From an uncultured Paraglaciecola sp. (GTDB lineage Bacteria; Pseudomonadota; Gammaproteobacteria; Enterobacterales; Alteromonadaceae), in the NCBI GenBank assembly GCA_905479025.1, contig CAJQKX010000505.1, forward strand, positions 1 to 5,412: 5,412 nt of DNA. Reading direction: 5' to 3'. The translations under genes were made by a program, and so were the position numbers. The notes below the pieces were generated by a model that worked only from the letters and a program-made list of their open reading frames with translations, searched no databases and was not told the origin of the DNA. Position 1 is the first letter of the stretch; every line of letters begins with the position of its first letter. Below are positions 150 to 5,412 of the stretch, piece by piece.

Positions 150-2711
150 CTATCTAGCTTGAATACTTTGTTTGTCTATCTTGGCAGCAAACTGTTTTTG
201 TAACAATTGAATGCCGGGATCACTTTTCACCACTTCTCGGGCATATTCATTACGCACTTGATTCACTTTTAATTGCAAGGCATATGGGGAGTTAATGGGT
301 TTTCCAAGCTCAATTTCAAGTTCAATAGGCTCATTAAGTGCTAAACAAAGGGCATCTTTGAGCTGTTGCTGAGCTGTATCTGAAATAAGATGTGCCTTTG
401 TTTCTAAAAGTATCAATCTAACGGTGTTACCTTGTTTATTAAAAGTAGAGTGTAAAGCTAATTGTTTTGTCAATGCGGTCACTTGCATATCTTCAATCAA
501 CCTACTCCATCCATCAATTTGTAACGCTTTTTGGACTTTTTGTTTGTTAGGCAAAAAAGCTGATACCTCTAAGGTGACATCGCCAACATTATCTTCATCT
601 AAATGAGCATAAGAATCGAAATACTCAGTTTCTTGTAACGTTTTTTCTGCTGAAAAAGGACTGTTCATGGGTGTTAGCAAAGTTGGAGCAGAAGGGGTAA
701 CTAAGGGGGTAACCGCTGCTGAAACTGGTGACTCGTTTTCAACTGACCATGGCGGTAAATCATCTGTTTCATGGTCTACACTGGAAGATGAAATTTGTGG
801 TTCCGAAATAGATGCTGATGGGGGAATATCCTGACCTGGCTTTTTATCATTGGCCACATCAGCTTTAATTTCAGCTTCTTGGTTTTGATTACGGATCGAA
901 GCTAAATTGAATGGTGTAAAACTTTCAGACTTTTTTACCTGTTCAGCCCCTTCCCCCGCTTCACGTTGGCTTTGTTTAAGCTTATTACGAAGTGCTATTA
1001 AATCAGCGGTAGAGGTATTTGGTTTTGTATCAGTTTGCTGATGAGGATGTGCCTGAGGGATCTGTGTTTGTATTGCATCATTTTTATAACCCGATGTGTG
1101 ATGTTCAATGTCAAAACCTCCATGGCGTTGTTCTTCCAACGAAACGGGTTGATATTGGTCATAATCTATTGGTTGATGACCAAAATTTTCTGCCTGTTCC
1201 ATAATATCTTCCTGCTGAGCAAATAATTCAGCGTCCGAAGATTTTCCTTGTCCATCCTGTAATCTACTTTGATCTTGATTTGGTTCAGATGAAAGCTCGG
1301 GTGAAAGCTCGAGTGAAAGCTCGGGTGAAAGCTCGGGTGAAAGCTCGGGTAAAAGTTCAGATGAAGGCTCAGCACTTAACGTTTCATCAAGCACAGGATT
1401 ATTTTCAGCTATGACTTCACCTGGTTCGCTTTGTTGACCCGAAGATTCAACACCAGATTCAACTAGTGTAGCGCTTTGGTTTTTCATCTCATCAGAGTTA
1501 TGTGTTGTGAGATCAGTAGATAACGTTCCTAATGTGACATTGTCTATTATTTGACTGGTGGGTTGTTTAAAACCCCCTTCAACATCTTGAGTTAAGGCAA
1601 CGATGTCTAGTGCGTCTAACTTTACATTATTCGGACAAAAAGCCAGCATGCGCAACAATGTCATTTCCAGCCCTGTCCTGGCATCGGCAGCATGGGGTAA
1701 GTCTTTTTTACCTGTCAGGGCAATTTGATAGAGTAATTGAACTTGTTCAGCAGGTACAGATTTGGCCAATTGGAAAATAGCTCTGGCAGAAATCGTTTCT
1801 AATTTACATGCATCGGGCACAAATTGTGTCAGAGCAATTTGGTGCAGCAGGCTCATAATTTCAGCCAAGACCAACCCATAGTCGGGAGCCTGGTTAGCCA
1901 TCAATTCGACTTGCTGCATGACTTTGCCGCTGTCTTTTTTCACCAAGGAATGAACCAGTTTGAGCACTTGGTTTTTATCCATTAGCCCCAGCATATCGGT
2001 GACTGTTTGTATCCCAACTACACCATTACCTTGAGCGATGGCTTGATCTGTCAAACTTAACGCATCGCGCATACTACCTTGGGCAGCTCTCGCAAGCTGG
2101 TTGAGCGCGTCTTTGTCAAATACAATGCCTTCTTCGCCAAGTACAAAGCTTAACTGCTGGCAAATTTGTGAACGAGACAGGGCTTTAAGATTAAATTGTA
2201 AACAACGGGATAAAATCGTAACGGGTAGTTTTTGTGGATCAGTGGTCGCCAACAAAAATTTAACGTGAGGCGGCGGCTCTTCGAGGGTTTTCAGCAAAGC
2301 ATTAAAACTATGCTTCGACAACATGTGCACTTCATCTATTAAATAGACTTTATAACGTCCACGACTGGGTTTATATTGAACGTTATCTAACAACTCTCGA
2401 GTGTCTTCCACTTTTGTACGAGACGCAGCATCTATTTCAAGTAAATCAATAAAATTGCCGTTTTCGATTTCTTTACAAGTACTGCATTGACCACAAGGTT
2501 TAGCACTTAGACCTTGTTCACAGTTTAAACTTTTTGAAAAAATCCGAGCAATGGTGGTTTTACCTACACCCCGCGTACCAGTAAACAGATAAGCATGGTG
2601 CAGTCTATTATTATCAAGTGCATTAGAAATGGCAGTAACGACATGTTCTTGCCCTACTAATTCGCCAAAACGATTAGGTCGCCATTTTCTAGCTAAAACT
2701 TGATAACTCAT
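150..2711 (-). CDS. dnaX: DNA polymerase III tau subunit (and gamma by frameshift)
   Basis: This encodes the ATPase subunit of the replicative clamp loader, which loads the beta clamp and, as tau, links the polymerase core to the DnaB helicase. Visible features in order are: Walker A GTRGVGKT (45-52); zinc-module cysteines C64, C73, C76 and C79; Walker B VYLIDEVHM (122-130); the SRC motif with the arginine finger (168-170); sensor II GSMRDALS (212-219); and the domain III end GKKDLPHAADARTGLEMTLL (334-353). A low-complexity acidic Pro/Ser/Gln-rich linker runs from about 375 to 720. It contains a tetrapeptide repeat (about 447-474), a slippery site at K593-K594 and the conserved DDLPPWS motif (650-656). 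The C-terminal alpha-binding domain starts near DGWSRLIEDM (733-742). At 853 residues it is about 200 longer than E. coli tau (643), almost all in the linker. The start lies 8 nt after the apt stop. A GGTGAG inside the end of apt is a possible, rather distant ribosome site, so translation may be coupled to apt. Confidence 0.98.
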   Translation of the reverse strand: MSYQVLARKWRPNRFGELVGQEHVVTAISNALDNNRLHHAYLFTGTRGVGKTTIARIFSKSLNCEQGLSAKPCGQCSTCKEIENGNFIDLLEIDAASRTKVEDTRELLDNVQYKPSRGRYKVYLIDEVHMLSKHSFNALLKTLEEPPPHVKFLLATTDPQKLPVTILSRCLQFNLKALSRSQICQQLSFVLGEEGIVFDKDALNQLARAAQGSMRDALSLTDQAIAQGNGVVGIQTVTDMLGLMDKNQVLKLVHSLVKKDSGKVMQQVELMANQAPDYGLVLAEIMSLLHQIALTQFVPDACKLETISARAIFQLAKSVPAEQVQLLYQIALTGKKDLPHAADARTGLEMTLLRMLAFCPNNVKLDALDIVALTQDVEGGFKQPTSQIIDNVTLGTLSTDLTTHNSDEMKNQSATLVESGVESSGQQSEPGEVIAENNPVLDETLSAEPSSELLPELSPELSPELSLELSPELSSEPNQDQSRLQDGQGKSSDAELFAQQEDIMEQAENFGHQPIDYDQYQPVSLEEQRHGGFDIEHHTSGYKNDAIQTQIPQAHPHQQTDTKPNTSTADLIALRNKLKQSQREAGEGAEQVKKSESFTPFNLASIRNQNQEAEIKADVANDKKPGQDIPPSASISEPQISSSSVDHETDDLPPWSVENESPVSAAVTPLVTPSAPTLLTPMNSPFSAEKTLQETEYFDSYAHLDEDNVGDVTLEVSAFLPNKQKVQKALQIDGWSRLIEDMQVTALTKQLALHSTFNKQGNTVRLILLETKAHLISDTAQQQLKDALCLALNEPIELEIELGKPINSPYALQLKVNQVRNEYAREVVKSDPGIQLLQKQFAAKIDKQSIQAR
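870..952 (-). promoter_or_regulatory. Programmed -1 frameshift signal in dnaX producing gamma
   Basis: The mRNA reads A AAA AAG (936-930) in the X XXY YYZ phase: codons GTA AAA AAG encode V592 K593 K594. Slipping back one base gives AAA AAA GTC TGA, so the -1 frame ends after one extra residue at 927-925, giving a gamma of 595 residues. The same design occurs in E. coli dnaX (A AAA AAG followed at once by a -1 stop). An SD-like AAGGGG (952-947) lies 10 nt upstream of the heptamer, the spacing of the E. coli stimulator. The downstream stimulatory stem is less clear. The best candidate is a 9-bp stem, including one G-U pair, between 906-898 and 878-870 with a 19-nt loop. It begins 23 nt after the slippery site, farther than is usual. 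Slippery site, stop and SD-like element are seen directly; frameshifting itself is inferred. Confidence 0.88.
1291..1374 (-). repeat. In-frame 12-bp tandem repeat in the dnaX linker
   Basis: There are seven tandem 12-bp units. Written on the plus strand the unit is GAAAGCTCGGGT. Units 1, 3, 4 and 5 are identical, unit 2 differs by one base (1303-1314, GAAAGCTCGAGT), and the last two (1351-1362 and 1363-1374) are degenerate. On the coding strand each unit encodes Pro-Glu-Leu-Ser (Leu-Glu-Leu-Ser in unit 2), giving an acidic run at about residues 447-474 in the linker between domain III and the frameshift site. Because the unit length is a multiple of three, gain or loss of copies changes linker length without breaking the frame. 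The near identity of the central units suggests recent expansion by slippage. Confidence 0.93.
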
Positions 2712-2719
2712 TTACTTAG

Positions 2720-3268
2720 TTACTCACCGTCGAATTCACAAATAGAAAAACTGGTAACACCATAATCGATAAGTTTTTGATTACCACCAAGTTCTGGTAA
2801 TGAAATAACAAAACCAGCGTGTTCAACCACACCGCCCAAGCGCCTGATCAAATTAGCCGTAGCGATCATAGTACCGCCAGTTGCCAACAAATCATCCATC
2901 ATCAATACTTTCTCGCCGGGTTTTACTGCATCCCTATGGATTTCTAGACAATCAGTACCGTATTCAAGTTCATAACTTTCACTTATCACTTCGCGAGGCA
3001 GTTTATTTGGCTTACGCACCGGAATAAATCCGATCCCTAATTCAATGGCTAAAGGCGCACCAAACAAAAATCCACGAGCTTCAGTACCCGCAACTTTATC
3101 AAAACCCATTGGCGCATAATGCTTCAATAATATTTCAATACTGGCTGAGTAGGCTTTATGATCTTCTAAAACCGAGGTAACATCACGAAACATGATCCCA
3201 GGTTTAGGATAATCAGGAACGGTTTTAATAACCGATTTTATATATTCGGCGGGCACGAATTTCCCCAT
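2720..3268 (-). CDS. apt: Adenine phosphoribosyltransferase
   Basis: This cytosolic purine-salvage enzyme converts adenine and PRPP to AMP and pyrophosphate. At 182 residues it has the usual family length (E. coli Apt is 183) and aligns along its whole length by eye. Signatures are [14 protein letters not shown] (19-32), [12 protein letters not shown] (61-72), [10 protein letters not shown] (84-93), the flexible catalytic loop region around [11 protein letters not shown] (96-106), and the PRPP-binding loop [13 protein letters not shown] (121-133) with its paired aspartates. The ATG at 3266-3268 gives an N-terminus of normal length, but no clear Shine-Dalgarno precedes it (the leader just upstream is CTTATTAATTT). 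The gene follows a putative 40-codon membrane-protein gene after 34 nt and precedes dnaX by 8 nt. The apt-dnaX order is the common gammaproteobacterial one and suggests a single operon. Confidence 0.98.
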
Positions 3269-3301: not shown

Positions 3302-3307
3302 ATTATA
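3302..3307 (-). promoter_or_regulatory. Candidate -10 element for apt-dnaX-ybaB
   Basis: On the minus strand a perfect TATAAT sits at 3307-3302. It would place a transcription start near 3295 and leave a 5' leader of about 27 nt before the apt ATG. No convincing -35 hexamer is found 16-18 bp upstream: the bases there read TACTGG or ACTGGG. The element overlaps the last codons and stop of the upstream 40-codon ORF (CTA TAA). It could therefore be chance arising from the coding sequence, and apt may instead be transcribed together with that ORF. Confidence 0.4.
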
Positions 3308-3425
3308 GGTAAAAAACGAACCAACCCAGTATGACATGCATTAATGGTAATGCTAACAGAACGCCTAAGGCGGCAAACAAATAGCCCCAATTAAATGGGT
3401 CGTGTGGACTGTTACTATCTTGCAT
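3303..3425 (-). CDS. Putative 40-residue single-pass membrane miniprotein
   Basis: I do not recognise a named family. The ORF runs from ATG (3425-3423) to TAA (3305-3303). It has a well-placed ribosome site: CTGGAG upstream, with GGAG 7 nt from the ATG. The protein begins MQDSNSPHDPFNW, a short polar acidic segment, and continues with an almost uninterrupted hydrophobic stretch from about residue 14 to 40 (including LFAALGVLLALPLMHVILGW). This fits one transmembrane helix reaching nearly to the C-terminus. It contains no Lys or Arg, two His (8 and 30) and a proline (27) within the helix. It lies 34 nt upstream of apt on the same strand and could be the first gene of the apt-dnaX-ybaB operon. 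The ribosome site and amphipathic layout favour a real gene; the short length leaves doubt. Function is unknown. Confidence 0.68.
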   Translation of the reverse strand: MQDSNSPHDPFNWGYLFAALGVLLALPLMHVILGWFVFYL

Positions 3426-3674: not shown

Positions 3675-4421
3675 TTATTCGTCTACCGGAAATAATATTT
3701 CTTGTTTTAATAACTGCTTTAGCACTTGTTGAAGTGACTCGGTGATTTGTTGAACGTCAAGTTGCGGCATGGCGGCAATCATCGTTTTACTAAGGAAGTC
3801 AATGCTGGCCACTCCTTGTTGCGCAATTATACTTAACAAGTGCGCAGATACAGCATTAACGAGTGTGAAATTCACATCGTCTGTGGCATCTCGATAAATC
3901 ACTAGATACACCACTTCATTAGTCTGTGTAGGTTTAAAATCAGAACTTATTTGATGAACCGGATATTGGTAACTGACCAAGCTTGCTAAGTCTGACATCT
4001 GAACTTGGATTACCTGTGAATGCCCGTCCCAAACATTAGCTATTTGACTCGATTGGCGCACACTAACGTCTAACTCCAGCCATTCGTAATGTGCTAATTC
4101 GAGCATAAAGACCGGATCACTCTCGGTTAATGCATATTCACTGCTTAGGTATTCGACAAATTCCTTACTGATATCAATAAAGTAAGGAGAGCGGCATGTA
4201 TGTTCAATAAAAAACTTTCGCGCCAATACTTGCCATTGTTGTTCTGAATATAAACTCTCTAAGACAGGAAATCCTGAACTGAGAAAACCCAAAATATTGT
4301 TAAAAAATAAATCTCGATATATTTTTAAACGGCGGTCTTCGATCTCTCCATCAAATGGATGGGCTTGAGGGTTTTTTATATGCTGAATAAAAGCACGTTG
4401 TGTTTTTATCAGTGACGTCAT
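3675..4421 (-). CDS. DUF2063 partner protein of the MNIO peptide-modifying enzyme (BufC/HvfC type)
   Basis: This 248-residue protein has the DUF2063 N-terminal domain. Seen here are a helical start (TQRAFIQHIKNP, 7-18), the family signature region RRLKIYRDLFFNNILGFLSSGFPVL (30-54, key residues R34-equivalent basic cluster, IYR, FFNN and FPVL), then FFIEHTCRSPYFIDIS (70-85) and the acidic LELAHYEWLELD (107-118). The C-terminal part (about 140-248) is of mixed character. It ends in helices LDVQQITESLQQVLKQLLKQ that suggest a winged-helix-like or peptide-recognition module. By family knowledge such proteins pair with DUF692 oxidases and help present the precursor peptide, although the Pfam name calls the domain a putative DNA-binding one. 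The start ATG shares one base with the DUF692 stop (TAATG), and no separate ribosome site is visible, so translation is probably coupled. Cytosolic, with no signal peptide. Confidence 0.9.
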   Translation of the reverse strand: MTSLIKTQRAFIQHIKNPQAHPFDGEIEDRRLKIYRDLFFNNILGFLSSGFPVLESLYSEQQWQVLARKFFIEHTCRSPYFIDISKEFVEYLSSEYALTESDPVFMLELAHYEWLELDVSVRQSSQIANVWDGHSQVIQVQMSDLASLVSYQYPVHQISSDFKPTQTNEVVYLVIYRDATDDVNFTLVNAVSAHLLSIIAQQGVASIDFLSKTMIAAMPQLDVQQITESLQQVLKQLLKQEILFPVDE

Positions 4422-5269
4422 TAGGCGCTAAATTGTTTCGGGTGCTGGGCAGATACTTGCTGCTGAATAGTTCTGATTTTTTCCATTTCTAATAACAATT
4501 CATGAATGGGTGGTATATTAAAGTCTCTTTCTAACAAAGTCGGAAAAACACCATGGATCTCATAGGCCTTTTTAAGTAATTGCCAAACAGGTTCAATCAC
4601 ATCTGCACCGTGGGTATCAATTTTTAAATCATCAGCTTCATCATAGTGCCCTGCAATATGCCCATATACAATTTTACCGCTGGGCATAGCGGCCAAGAAA
4701 GCTTCGGCATCGTAGCCGTGGTTAATAGAATTAACATAAATATTATTCACATCTAATAACATCAAACAACCCGATTCATTCAATACCGATAGTGTGAATT
4801 CTTCTTCGCTCATCTCTTGTCCAGGTGCGGCATAATAAGACACATTTTCTAATAGCAACGGCCGCTCAATAATATCTTGTACTTGTTTAACCCGCTCAAC
4901 TACATGTTTAACTGCTTCTTCGGTAAAAGGAATAGGCATCAAATCATACAGGTGACCTTGACCCGAACAGTAACTTAAATGTTCACTGTAATATAAAATA
5001 TGATGTCTATCTAAGAATGCTTTAACCTTTTTTACAAAATTGATATCAAGAGTATCAGGGCCGCCAATAGACAATGATAAACCGTGGCTAACAAAATTAC
5101 AGGCAGAGGTAAATTGGTTGAGGTTTTTCTGATACTTTCCCCCAAGAGGGATCCAATTTTCCGGCGCCACTTCCCAAAAATCGACAGAGCTAGGAATATC
5201 AGGTAAAAGCTCATTGAGCATTTCTCGGCGTAAACCTAAGCCTACCCCTGAAAGATGTTTATTGATCAT
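4421..5269 (-). CDS. DUF692/MNIO iron-dependent peptide-modifying oxidase (BufB/HvfB type)
   Basis: This TIM-barrel enzyme belongs to the multinuclear non-heme iron oxidase (MNIO) family. Such enzymes oxidatively modify cysteines of ribosomal peptides. Family hallmarks, numbered from a GTG at 5281, are: VGLGLRREML (13-22), E37 and E41 in WEVAPENW, SHGLSLS (65-71), SEHLSY (99-104), LLLENVSYY (142-150), LLDVNNIYVNSINHG (175-189), YGHIAGH (206-212), IDTHGADV (221-228), PVWQL (231-235) and TLLERDFNIP (248-257). The His, Asp and Glu residues expected to bind the iron cluster (H66, E100-H101, E145, D177, H188, H208, D222, H224, E251) appear intact. The longest frame opens with that GTG, giving 286 residues. 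I prefer the ATG at 5269, giving 282 residues: it has an AGGTGA ribosome site 8 nt upstream, and the GTG itself lies inside that site. The gene overlaps the DUF2063 gene by one base and follows the EGKCG precursor after a hairpin. Confidence 0.93.
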   Translation of the reverse strand: MINKHLSGVGLGLRREMLNELLPDIPSSVDFWEVAPENWIPLGGKYQKNLNQFTSACNFVSHGLSLSIGGPDTLDINFVKKVKAFLDRHHILYYSEHLSYCSGQGHLYDLMPIPFTEEAVKHVVERVKQVQDIIERPLLLENVSYYAAPGQEMSEEEFTLSVLNESGCLMLLDVNNIYVNSINHGYDAEAFLAAMPSGKIVYGHIAGHYDEADDLKIDTHGADVIEPVWQLLKKAYEIHGVFPTLLERDFNIPPIHELLLEMEKIRTIQQQVSAQHPKQFSA

Positions 5270-5273
5270 TAGA

Positions 5274-5282
5274 TGTGTCACC
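5274..5282 (-). promoter_or_regulatory. Ribosome binding site that decides the DUF692 start
   Basis: The minus strand reads CAGGTGACACATCTAATG. AGGTGA matches the anti-Shine-Dalgarno complement and ends 8 nt before the ATG at 5269-5267. The alternative GTG start (5281-5279) lies inside this same AGGTGA, so it would lack its own ribosome site. This favours initiation at the ATG. Confidence 0.7.
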
Positions 5283-5296
5283 TGAATTTTTCTAAA

Positions 5297-5324
5297 ATAA
5301 AGGCCGACATGAGCCGGCCTTTAT
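5297..5324 (-). terminator. Hairpin terminator/attenuator between precursor and DUF692 gene
   Basis: A perfect 10-bp stem, ATAAAGGCCG (5297-5306) with CGGCCTTTAT (5315-5324), encloses an 8-base loop. On the minus-strand transcript the stem ends CGGCCTTTAT and is followed by TTTAG, giving a T-rich tail after a G+C-rich core, as in an intrinsic terminator. It starts about 20 bases after the stop of the precursor gene and ends before the ribosome site of the DUF692 gene. No good promoter is seen between hairpin and enzyme gene, so the enzymes probably depend on read-through. Confidence 0.82.
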
Positions 5325-5345
5325 CATTTAACTAAACCTAAGTTA

Positions 5346-5412
5346 TTAAGCTTGGCCGCCACATTTACCTTCACCACATTTGCCTTCTTTCATAGTTTTG
5401 GCTGCTTTTTCG
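5346..5412 (-). CDS. C-terminal end of an EGKCG-motif RiPP precursor (HvfA/bufferin-like), cut by window edge
   Basis: Only the last 21 full codons are visible. They end in KEGKCGEGKCGGQA, followed by two stops in tandem (TAA TAA, 5348-5343). Two consecutive EGKCG motifs, Lys-rich with one Cys each, are typical of the low-complexity precursor peptides encoded beside DUF692 and DUF2063 genes (HvfA-like). The frame is chosen because it gives these repeated motifs, has no stop before the window edge and ends just ahead of a terminator hairpin. By family knowledge the precursor is a small secreted protein. Its cysteines are modified by the adjacent MNIO enzyme and bind copper. The N-terminus, including any signal peptide and the total number of EGKCG motifs, lies outside the window. 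Confidence 0.85.
   Translation of the reverse strand, partial: EKAAKTMKEGKCGEGKCGGQA

Follow-up and report, generated by a model that had tools for sequence, protein, structure and literature searches.

A gene for an MNIO (DUF692) enzyme, lying between a DUF2063 gene and the end of a small-protein gene, raises the question of which modified peptide this locus encodes and how its production might be controlled. In the window (the whole stretch of DNA that was analysed, 5,412 nt), the minus-strand genes follow each other in the direction of transcription as hvfA (its end only), hvfB, hvfC, a 40-residue open reading frame (ORF), apt, dnaX and the start of ybaB. The last name comes from only 35 residues scoring 28.6 bits, below the cut-off of 49.45. 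The genes apt (adenine phosphoribosyltransferase, 2720–3268, minus strand; NF002632, 291.9 bits, cut-off 243) and dnaX (DNA polymerase III gamma/tau, 150–2711, minus strand; NF005942, 775.3 bits, cut-off 613) are neighbours; the DnaX linker (window about 1290–1370, minus strand) contains a short run of SPEL-type repeats. The closest relatives of HvfB are from Paraglaciecola (93% identity to locus L001, 92% to L002–L004), and one of these loci, L003 of Paraglaciecola sp. MB-3u-78, shares 85% DNA identity with the entire window.

The hvfB ORF (4421–5281, minus strand) opens with GTG and encodes 286 residues; an alternative ATG at 5269 gives the 282-residue MNIO maturase (4421–5269) that we use for residue numbering. 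The protein scored 344.2 bits against PF05114 (cut-off 25) and 430.3 bits against the NCBIfam HvfB equivalog NF003818 (cut-off 360), and matched the structure 3BWW with an E value of 9.4e-63, the MbnB chains matching more weakly. In an alignment of the window enzyme with 80 relatives, H62, H97, E141, D173, N175, H204, D218, H220, E247 and D249, the last being the catalytic Asp/base, are invariant (81/81). We take these positions to be the MNIO metal ligands, from their alignment to 3BWW and MbnB and from general knowledge of the family, and the reading of the gene in the initial annotation as a DUF692 oxidase with intact metal ligands is upheld. R14–R15 are likewise present in all 81 sequences; F250 is the window's own residue. 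As judged by position and motif, R14–R15 and D249–F250 correspond to Arg15/Arg16 and Asp249/Phe250 of FonB, specificity residues described for the Lys-Cys group (PMC13097082). Residues N175, D242 and H244 of site 3 in Haemophilus influenzae HvfB would be N175, D218 and H220 here, if an insertion in 3BWW is allowed for; a mixed-valent diiron cofactor is described in HvfBC (PMC13419390).

HvfC (3675–4421, minus strand, 248 residues), the DUF2063/RRE partner protein, matched PF09836 (93.5 bits), PF22106 (80.9 bits), the NCBIfam equivalog NF050145 (281.8 bits, cut-off 142) and the structure 3DEE (E value 1.8e-13). The stop codon of hvfB shares base 4421 with the start codon of hvfC (TAATG), which bears out the one-base overlap noticed earlier. 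On the other side of hvfB, the end of hvfA (5346–5411, minus strand; 21 codons and a stop, the gene running past the window edge) translates to EKAAKTMKEGKCGEGKCGGQA*. Two EGKCG motifs, at 5373–5387 and 5358–5372, are read in this translation, as the initial annotation had noticed for the tail of a small protein just upstream. The tail passed the 'HvfA family' domain model NF050137 (24.1 bits, cut-off 19.5), against which four full-length relative precursors scored 78.6–107.4 bits. The narrower HvfA equivalog NF050188 (cut-off 95) was missed both by the tail (17.5 bits) and by the four full relatives (63.4–75.8 bits), and we therefore file the window precursor as an EGKCG captophorin and not as HvfA proper.

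The three genes also stay together in related genomes. HvfC directly follows HvfB in 79 of 80 related loci, and an ORF containing KCG, in some cases truncated by a contig end, lies immediately upstream of hvfB in 79 of 80; the sole exception is L005, where the contig stops 33 nt before the hvfB match. This conservation of order indicates that the hvfA-hvfB-hvfC arrangement is beyond chance. With the HvfB and HvfC equivalogs and the HvfA-family domain all passed, the original reading of an MNIO/DUF2063/EGKCG cluster stands, and the gene set is of the captophorin (Buf_EGKCG/oxazolin) type, a kind already known. The superfamily also takes in bufferin (Buf1/Buf2) and methanobactin clusters, and the window enzyme does give matches to the BufB model NF050167 (258.9 bits) and the MbnB model TIGR04159 (49.3 bits). 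Both, however, fall below their cut-offs (310 and 325), whereas the HvfB cut-off is exceeded, and the precursor tail carries EGKCG repeats, so that a bufferin- or methanobactin-type cluster is very improbable. Of the earlier family label 'HvfABC/bufferin', the first half fits, since the HvfB cut-off was passed; the second does not, since that of BufB was missed.

The published members of the class show how far the locus resembles known systems. About 2,000 Buf_EGKCG/oxazolin proteins are described, with a variable number of repeats and two EGKCG per repeat (PMC12452194). Their clusters resemble the present loci in these repeats, in a probable Sec signal, in the MNIO and DUF2063 genes and in their variable gene combinations, but are described with repeats of 17 residues, whereas the spacing varies in the loci here. 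The hvfABCX locus of nontypeable H. influenzae (oxazolin; PMC13419390) likewise combines an EGKCG precursor, an MNIO HvfB and an RRE partner HvfC, and the captophorin fontiphorin, FonABC (PMC13097082), shares the EGKCG repeats and the Arg-Arg and Asp-Phe residues with the present system, whose product is predicted from the genes. For the family, conversion of Cys to a copper-binding 5-thiooxazole is supported (PMC13097082, PMC13419390): 5-thiooxazoles are described for fontiphorin and for the Haemophilus and gonococcal products, copper binding is described as well, and products of the EGKCG class bind Cu(I) (PMC13097082).

Since the window ends inside hvfA, with 21 precursor residues, before the start of the gene, its signal peptide and the full repeat array, complete precursors were examined in the 71 of 80 related loci that offered an hvfA start together with 200 nt of upstream sequence. 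They are 100–206 residues long and contain 3–18 exact EGKCG motifs (median 12) and 6–18 Cys, compared with the six modified Cys of H. influenzae (PMC13419390); five to eight Cys are given for a marine Microbulbifer relative (PMC12538549). All 71 are positive by a simple signal-peptide heuristic, which is not a dedicated predictor, and the nearest complete relatives combine a Sec-like N-terminus with 12 (L001), 8 (L002), 11 (L003) and 12 (L006) EGKCG motifs. Among the 120 HvfA-like proteins listed of 4608 matches, nine contain the window's 21 tail residues (P0002, P0008, P0009, P0011, P0012, P0014, P0015, P0019 and P0021), with 4–7 EGKCG each. As the same residues occur in at least nine proteins, the tail fixes neither the species nor the number of repeats. 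The contig ends less than 500 nt upstream of hvfB in 8 of the 80 loci (L004, L005, L011, L013, L014, L020, L028 and L068), within the hvfA repeat array or shortly beyond it, and L023 has a run of N in the repeat region of hvfA. The hvfA repeats thus probably break assemblies, as at the end of the window itself, and repeat numbers from short reads may be too low. Repeat units differ less within a locus than between loci (2.95 versus 4.50 of 33 nt; 38 of 40 loci); the effect is modest and proves little about repeat homogenisation.

Taken together, the genes hvfABC very probably form a RiPP operon of captophorin (Buf_EGKCG/oxazolin) type in a Paraglaciecola-like bacterium, with a product that would chelate Cu(I); modification, metal and export are argued from published relatives. 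Against this reading stand the shortness of the precursor tail, the scores below the NF050188 cut-off and the lack of a linked DoxX-like gene. The gene set most likely converts Cys of a repetitive secreted peptide into copper-binding rings. HvfC, through its RRE, would recruit the precursor HvfA with its signal peptide, and in the cytoplasm HvfB, as an iron MNIO, would turn the Cys of EGKCG into 5-thiooxazoles by oxidation. Sec export would then deliver to the periplasm a repetitive peptide able to chelate Cu(I). Comparison of relatives further suggests that their hvfA would be transcribed from an ECF-type promoter, and that a hairpin after the gene would hold precursor mRNA above enzyme mRNA.

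The hairpin lies in the gap between hvfA and hvfB (5296–5325, minus strand) and consists of a 13-pair stem, a 4-nt loop and a short U tail. A simple terminator scan of the window did not list it; the surrounding stretch (5275–5345) has a folding z of −4.35. Comparable stems, with at least 8 pairs of which at least 4 are GC, were found in 57 of 78 related gaps, while 1560 shuffles gave 28 and 1462 random windows gave 66, and the folding z was −2 or lower in 48 of the 78. These results are consistent with a partial terminator that would keep precursor mRNA in excess. The strong stem and short U tail, together with hvfA-hvfB gaps that in relatives reach 224 nt, would also suit a full terminator, with hvfBC served by a promoter of its own. 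In the window, however, the gap from hvfA to the hvfB ATG measures just 76 nt, and we consider full termination unlikely and prefer the partial terminator.

Between hvfC and apt lies another conserved feature, an ORF of 40 residues (3303–3425, minus strand; MQDSNSPHDPFNWGYLFAALGVLLALPLMHVILGWFVFYL) with one hydrophobic stretch. By tblastn, 67 of 80 loci have it in the corresponding position (weakest E value 0.06), and it is under purifying selection (pN/pS 0.10–0.46, 10 of 10 comparisons). It gave no match in Pfam or NCBIfam, and none of 24 homologues carries a functional name. It seemed linked to hvfC, being present in L066 with no apt nearby, and was considered as a component of the Hvf system. 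However, it also occurs with apt in stretches without an HvfC match (L104–L110, 7 of 7), and since it is found beside apt without a nearby hvfC, we do not claim it for Hvf.

The initial annotation had also asked about a DoxX-like gene beside the precursor. In H. influenzae such a gene, hvfX, is a member of the hvf operon, and its product is called uncharacterised (PMC13419390). No hvfX match was found within the window, and in the 80 related loci the gene is linked in three (L076, L077 and L080, downstream of hvfC), a count that speaks for the stretches examined, as many loci are truncated by contig ends. In contrast to the arrangement in H. influenzae, hvfX was unlinked in 14 of 14 genomes of relatives. 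All 14 contain an HvfX-family gene above the cut-off; it lies on a different contig from the hvfABC-type hvfB in 12, and about 261 kb (G010) and about 957 kb (G007) away in the other two. In a sample of 59 genomes of the family, HvfX passed the cut-off in 43.

A possible tie between the separated genes came from the regions upstream of hvfA. The window ends before the hvfA promoter, and the promoter results that follow come from relatives. Aligned hvfA upstream regions showed two conserved blocks, and the pattern TGAAAT-N16..18-GGTCT was present in 48 of 71, always with a spacer of 17 nt and 38–75 nt before the ATG. The same pattern occurs just once elsewhere in the 1.7 Mb of these loci (both strands counted). 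All 10 Paraglaciecola loci that have an upstream region carry the element; the 23 upstream regions without it include the Kangiella loci and several from Alteromonas. A matrix trained on the 48 strict sites alone reached 10 bits upstream of 16 of 42 hvfX genes (the best 30 of 45 places above the cut-off, plus 12 from earlier genomes); random windows and shuffles reached this score in 0.33% of cases each. When spacers of 13–21 nt were compared for hvfX, only 17 was raised (16 versus 0–1). It seems that hvfX, which lies apart in relatives, is partly tied to hvfABC by a common stress promoter. Among five Paraglaciecola hvfX genes, one reaches 10 bits (L164, 15.1; L169, 7.0; L168, 1.9; L185, 1.5; L166, −0.7), and this weakens the reading of a split operon bound together by a promoter.

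Matrix matches were also found upstream of a DinB-like gene (14 of 23; 13 of 22 without the recurring seed genome L265) and of msrP (7 of the best 30), two sets that were chosen because strict matches occurred there. Control upstream regions gave none (0 of 234: apt 0/20, hvfC 0/77, a second apt set 0/70 and dnaX 0/67, the apt sets overlapping in a few genomes). No set consists of independent loci, its members being related, and lists of loci were capped at the best 30. The msrP case is weaker, because a spacer of 16 is raised there as well (6 of 30 at 8 bits, versus 10 of 30 for 17). Searched for in 10 genomes, the strict pattern recovered the hvfA site in every one, with 77 total matches versus 92 in the reversed control; as the totals do not exceed the control, single strict matches prove nothing, and recurrence and the matrix test were used instead. 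Of 28 non-hvfA N17 sites examined, 10 fall inside long ORFs. Recurrent non-hvfA sites precede DinB-like (three genomes), AhpC/TSA-like (two) and DsbD (two) genes, and sites seen in single genomes precede the genes for MsrP and for a BufA2 bufferin precursor. The latter, L222 of genome G008 (1437–1934, minus strand), is of BufA2 type (NF050166, 130.5 bits versus 60), and the strict element lies 113 nt before its longest-ORF start. In this one genome, bufferin and captophorin may thus share a promoter type.

We read TGAAAT-N17-GGTCT as a putative ECF-type promoter. Its −10 block resembles the block CGTCTAAH of the neisserial sigmaE promoter (PMC2893595). The whole element is different from GTMAGBWTT and CGTCTAAH with 12–13 nt between, as given for Neisseria sigmaE (PMC2893595), and from GTAACC-N16-CGAA of Caulobacter sigmaF (PMC3511200). 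In the literature searched, with most subscription journals outside it, we found no paper linking hvf genes to this element or to the hvfA-hvfB hairpin, and the accessible text of the Buf_EGKCG survey describes neither a promoter nor a hairpin for its clusters (PMC12452194). The sigma factor for the element was sought through autoregulation in four genomes and through the anti-sigma factor NrsF in 14, and was not found by either route. None of the 14 genomes contains NrsF, which was found to accompany MNIO clusters in PMC12452194. For autoregulation, 56 of 76 Sigma70_r2 matches were scored upstream, long and very weak matches being dropped, and two reached 8 bits. In the top candidate, L323, the match is 38 nt before the domain start and was read as lying inside the coding start, and the second has a poor site 276 nt away; both were rejected.

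The conserved element may define a stress regulon in Alteromonadales. In content it would be like the ECF regulons of H. influenzae RpoE2 (PMC7907618), Neisseria sigmaE (PMC2893595) and Caulobacter sigmaF (PMC3511200), where MNIO, DUF2063 and DoxX genes come with methionine-sulfoxide or YedY-type genes. Such company can also be read to mean that the peptide serves mainly against oxidative (hypochlorite or thiol) stress, with copper binding secondary: in H. influenzae hypochlorite switches on the hvf (doxX) cluster, an induction that depends on RpoE2 (PMC7907618), and the related promoter sites precede MsrP, DsbD, AhpC/TSA-like and DinB-like genes. Products of the class, however, bind Cu(I) (PMC13097082), a common regulon is compatible with both functions, and the msrP sites are the weak case; a mainly oxidative role is therefore possible but doubtful, and we favour a copper-chelating product. 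For the regulation we propose, as a reading evenly balanced between right and wrong, that Alteromonadaceae and their neighbours carry a split captophorin operon, with hvfABC by apt-dnaX and hvfX elsewhere, under one ECF-type promoter that would also drive the DinB-like gene and, in some genomes, BufA2 bufferin, MsrP, DsbD and AhpC/TSA-like genes. Such a periplasmic regulon for copper and oxidant stress would resemble those of Caulobacter sigmaF and Haemophilus RpoE2 in its content but use another promoter.

The operon itself is one more member of a large class that has been described recently, and it is the regulation that could matter. If the proposal is true, possession of the common promoter would single out HvfX, although unlinked, as a genuine partner in the pathway. 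An unlinked hvfX that keeps the promoter of the precursor gene in many genomes makes the role of HvfX testable in marine bacteria that are harmless, and the promoter motif offers a route to the sigma factor and to further targets.
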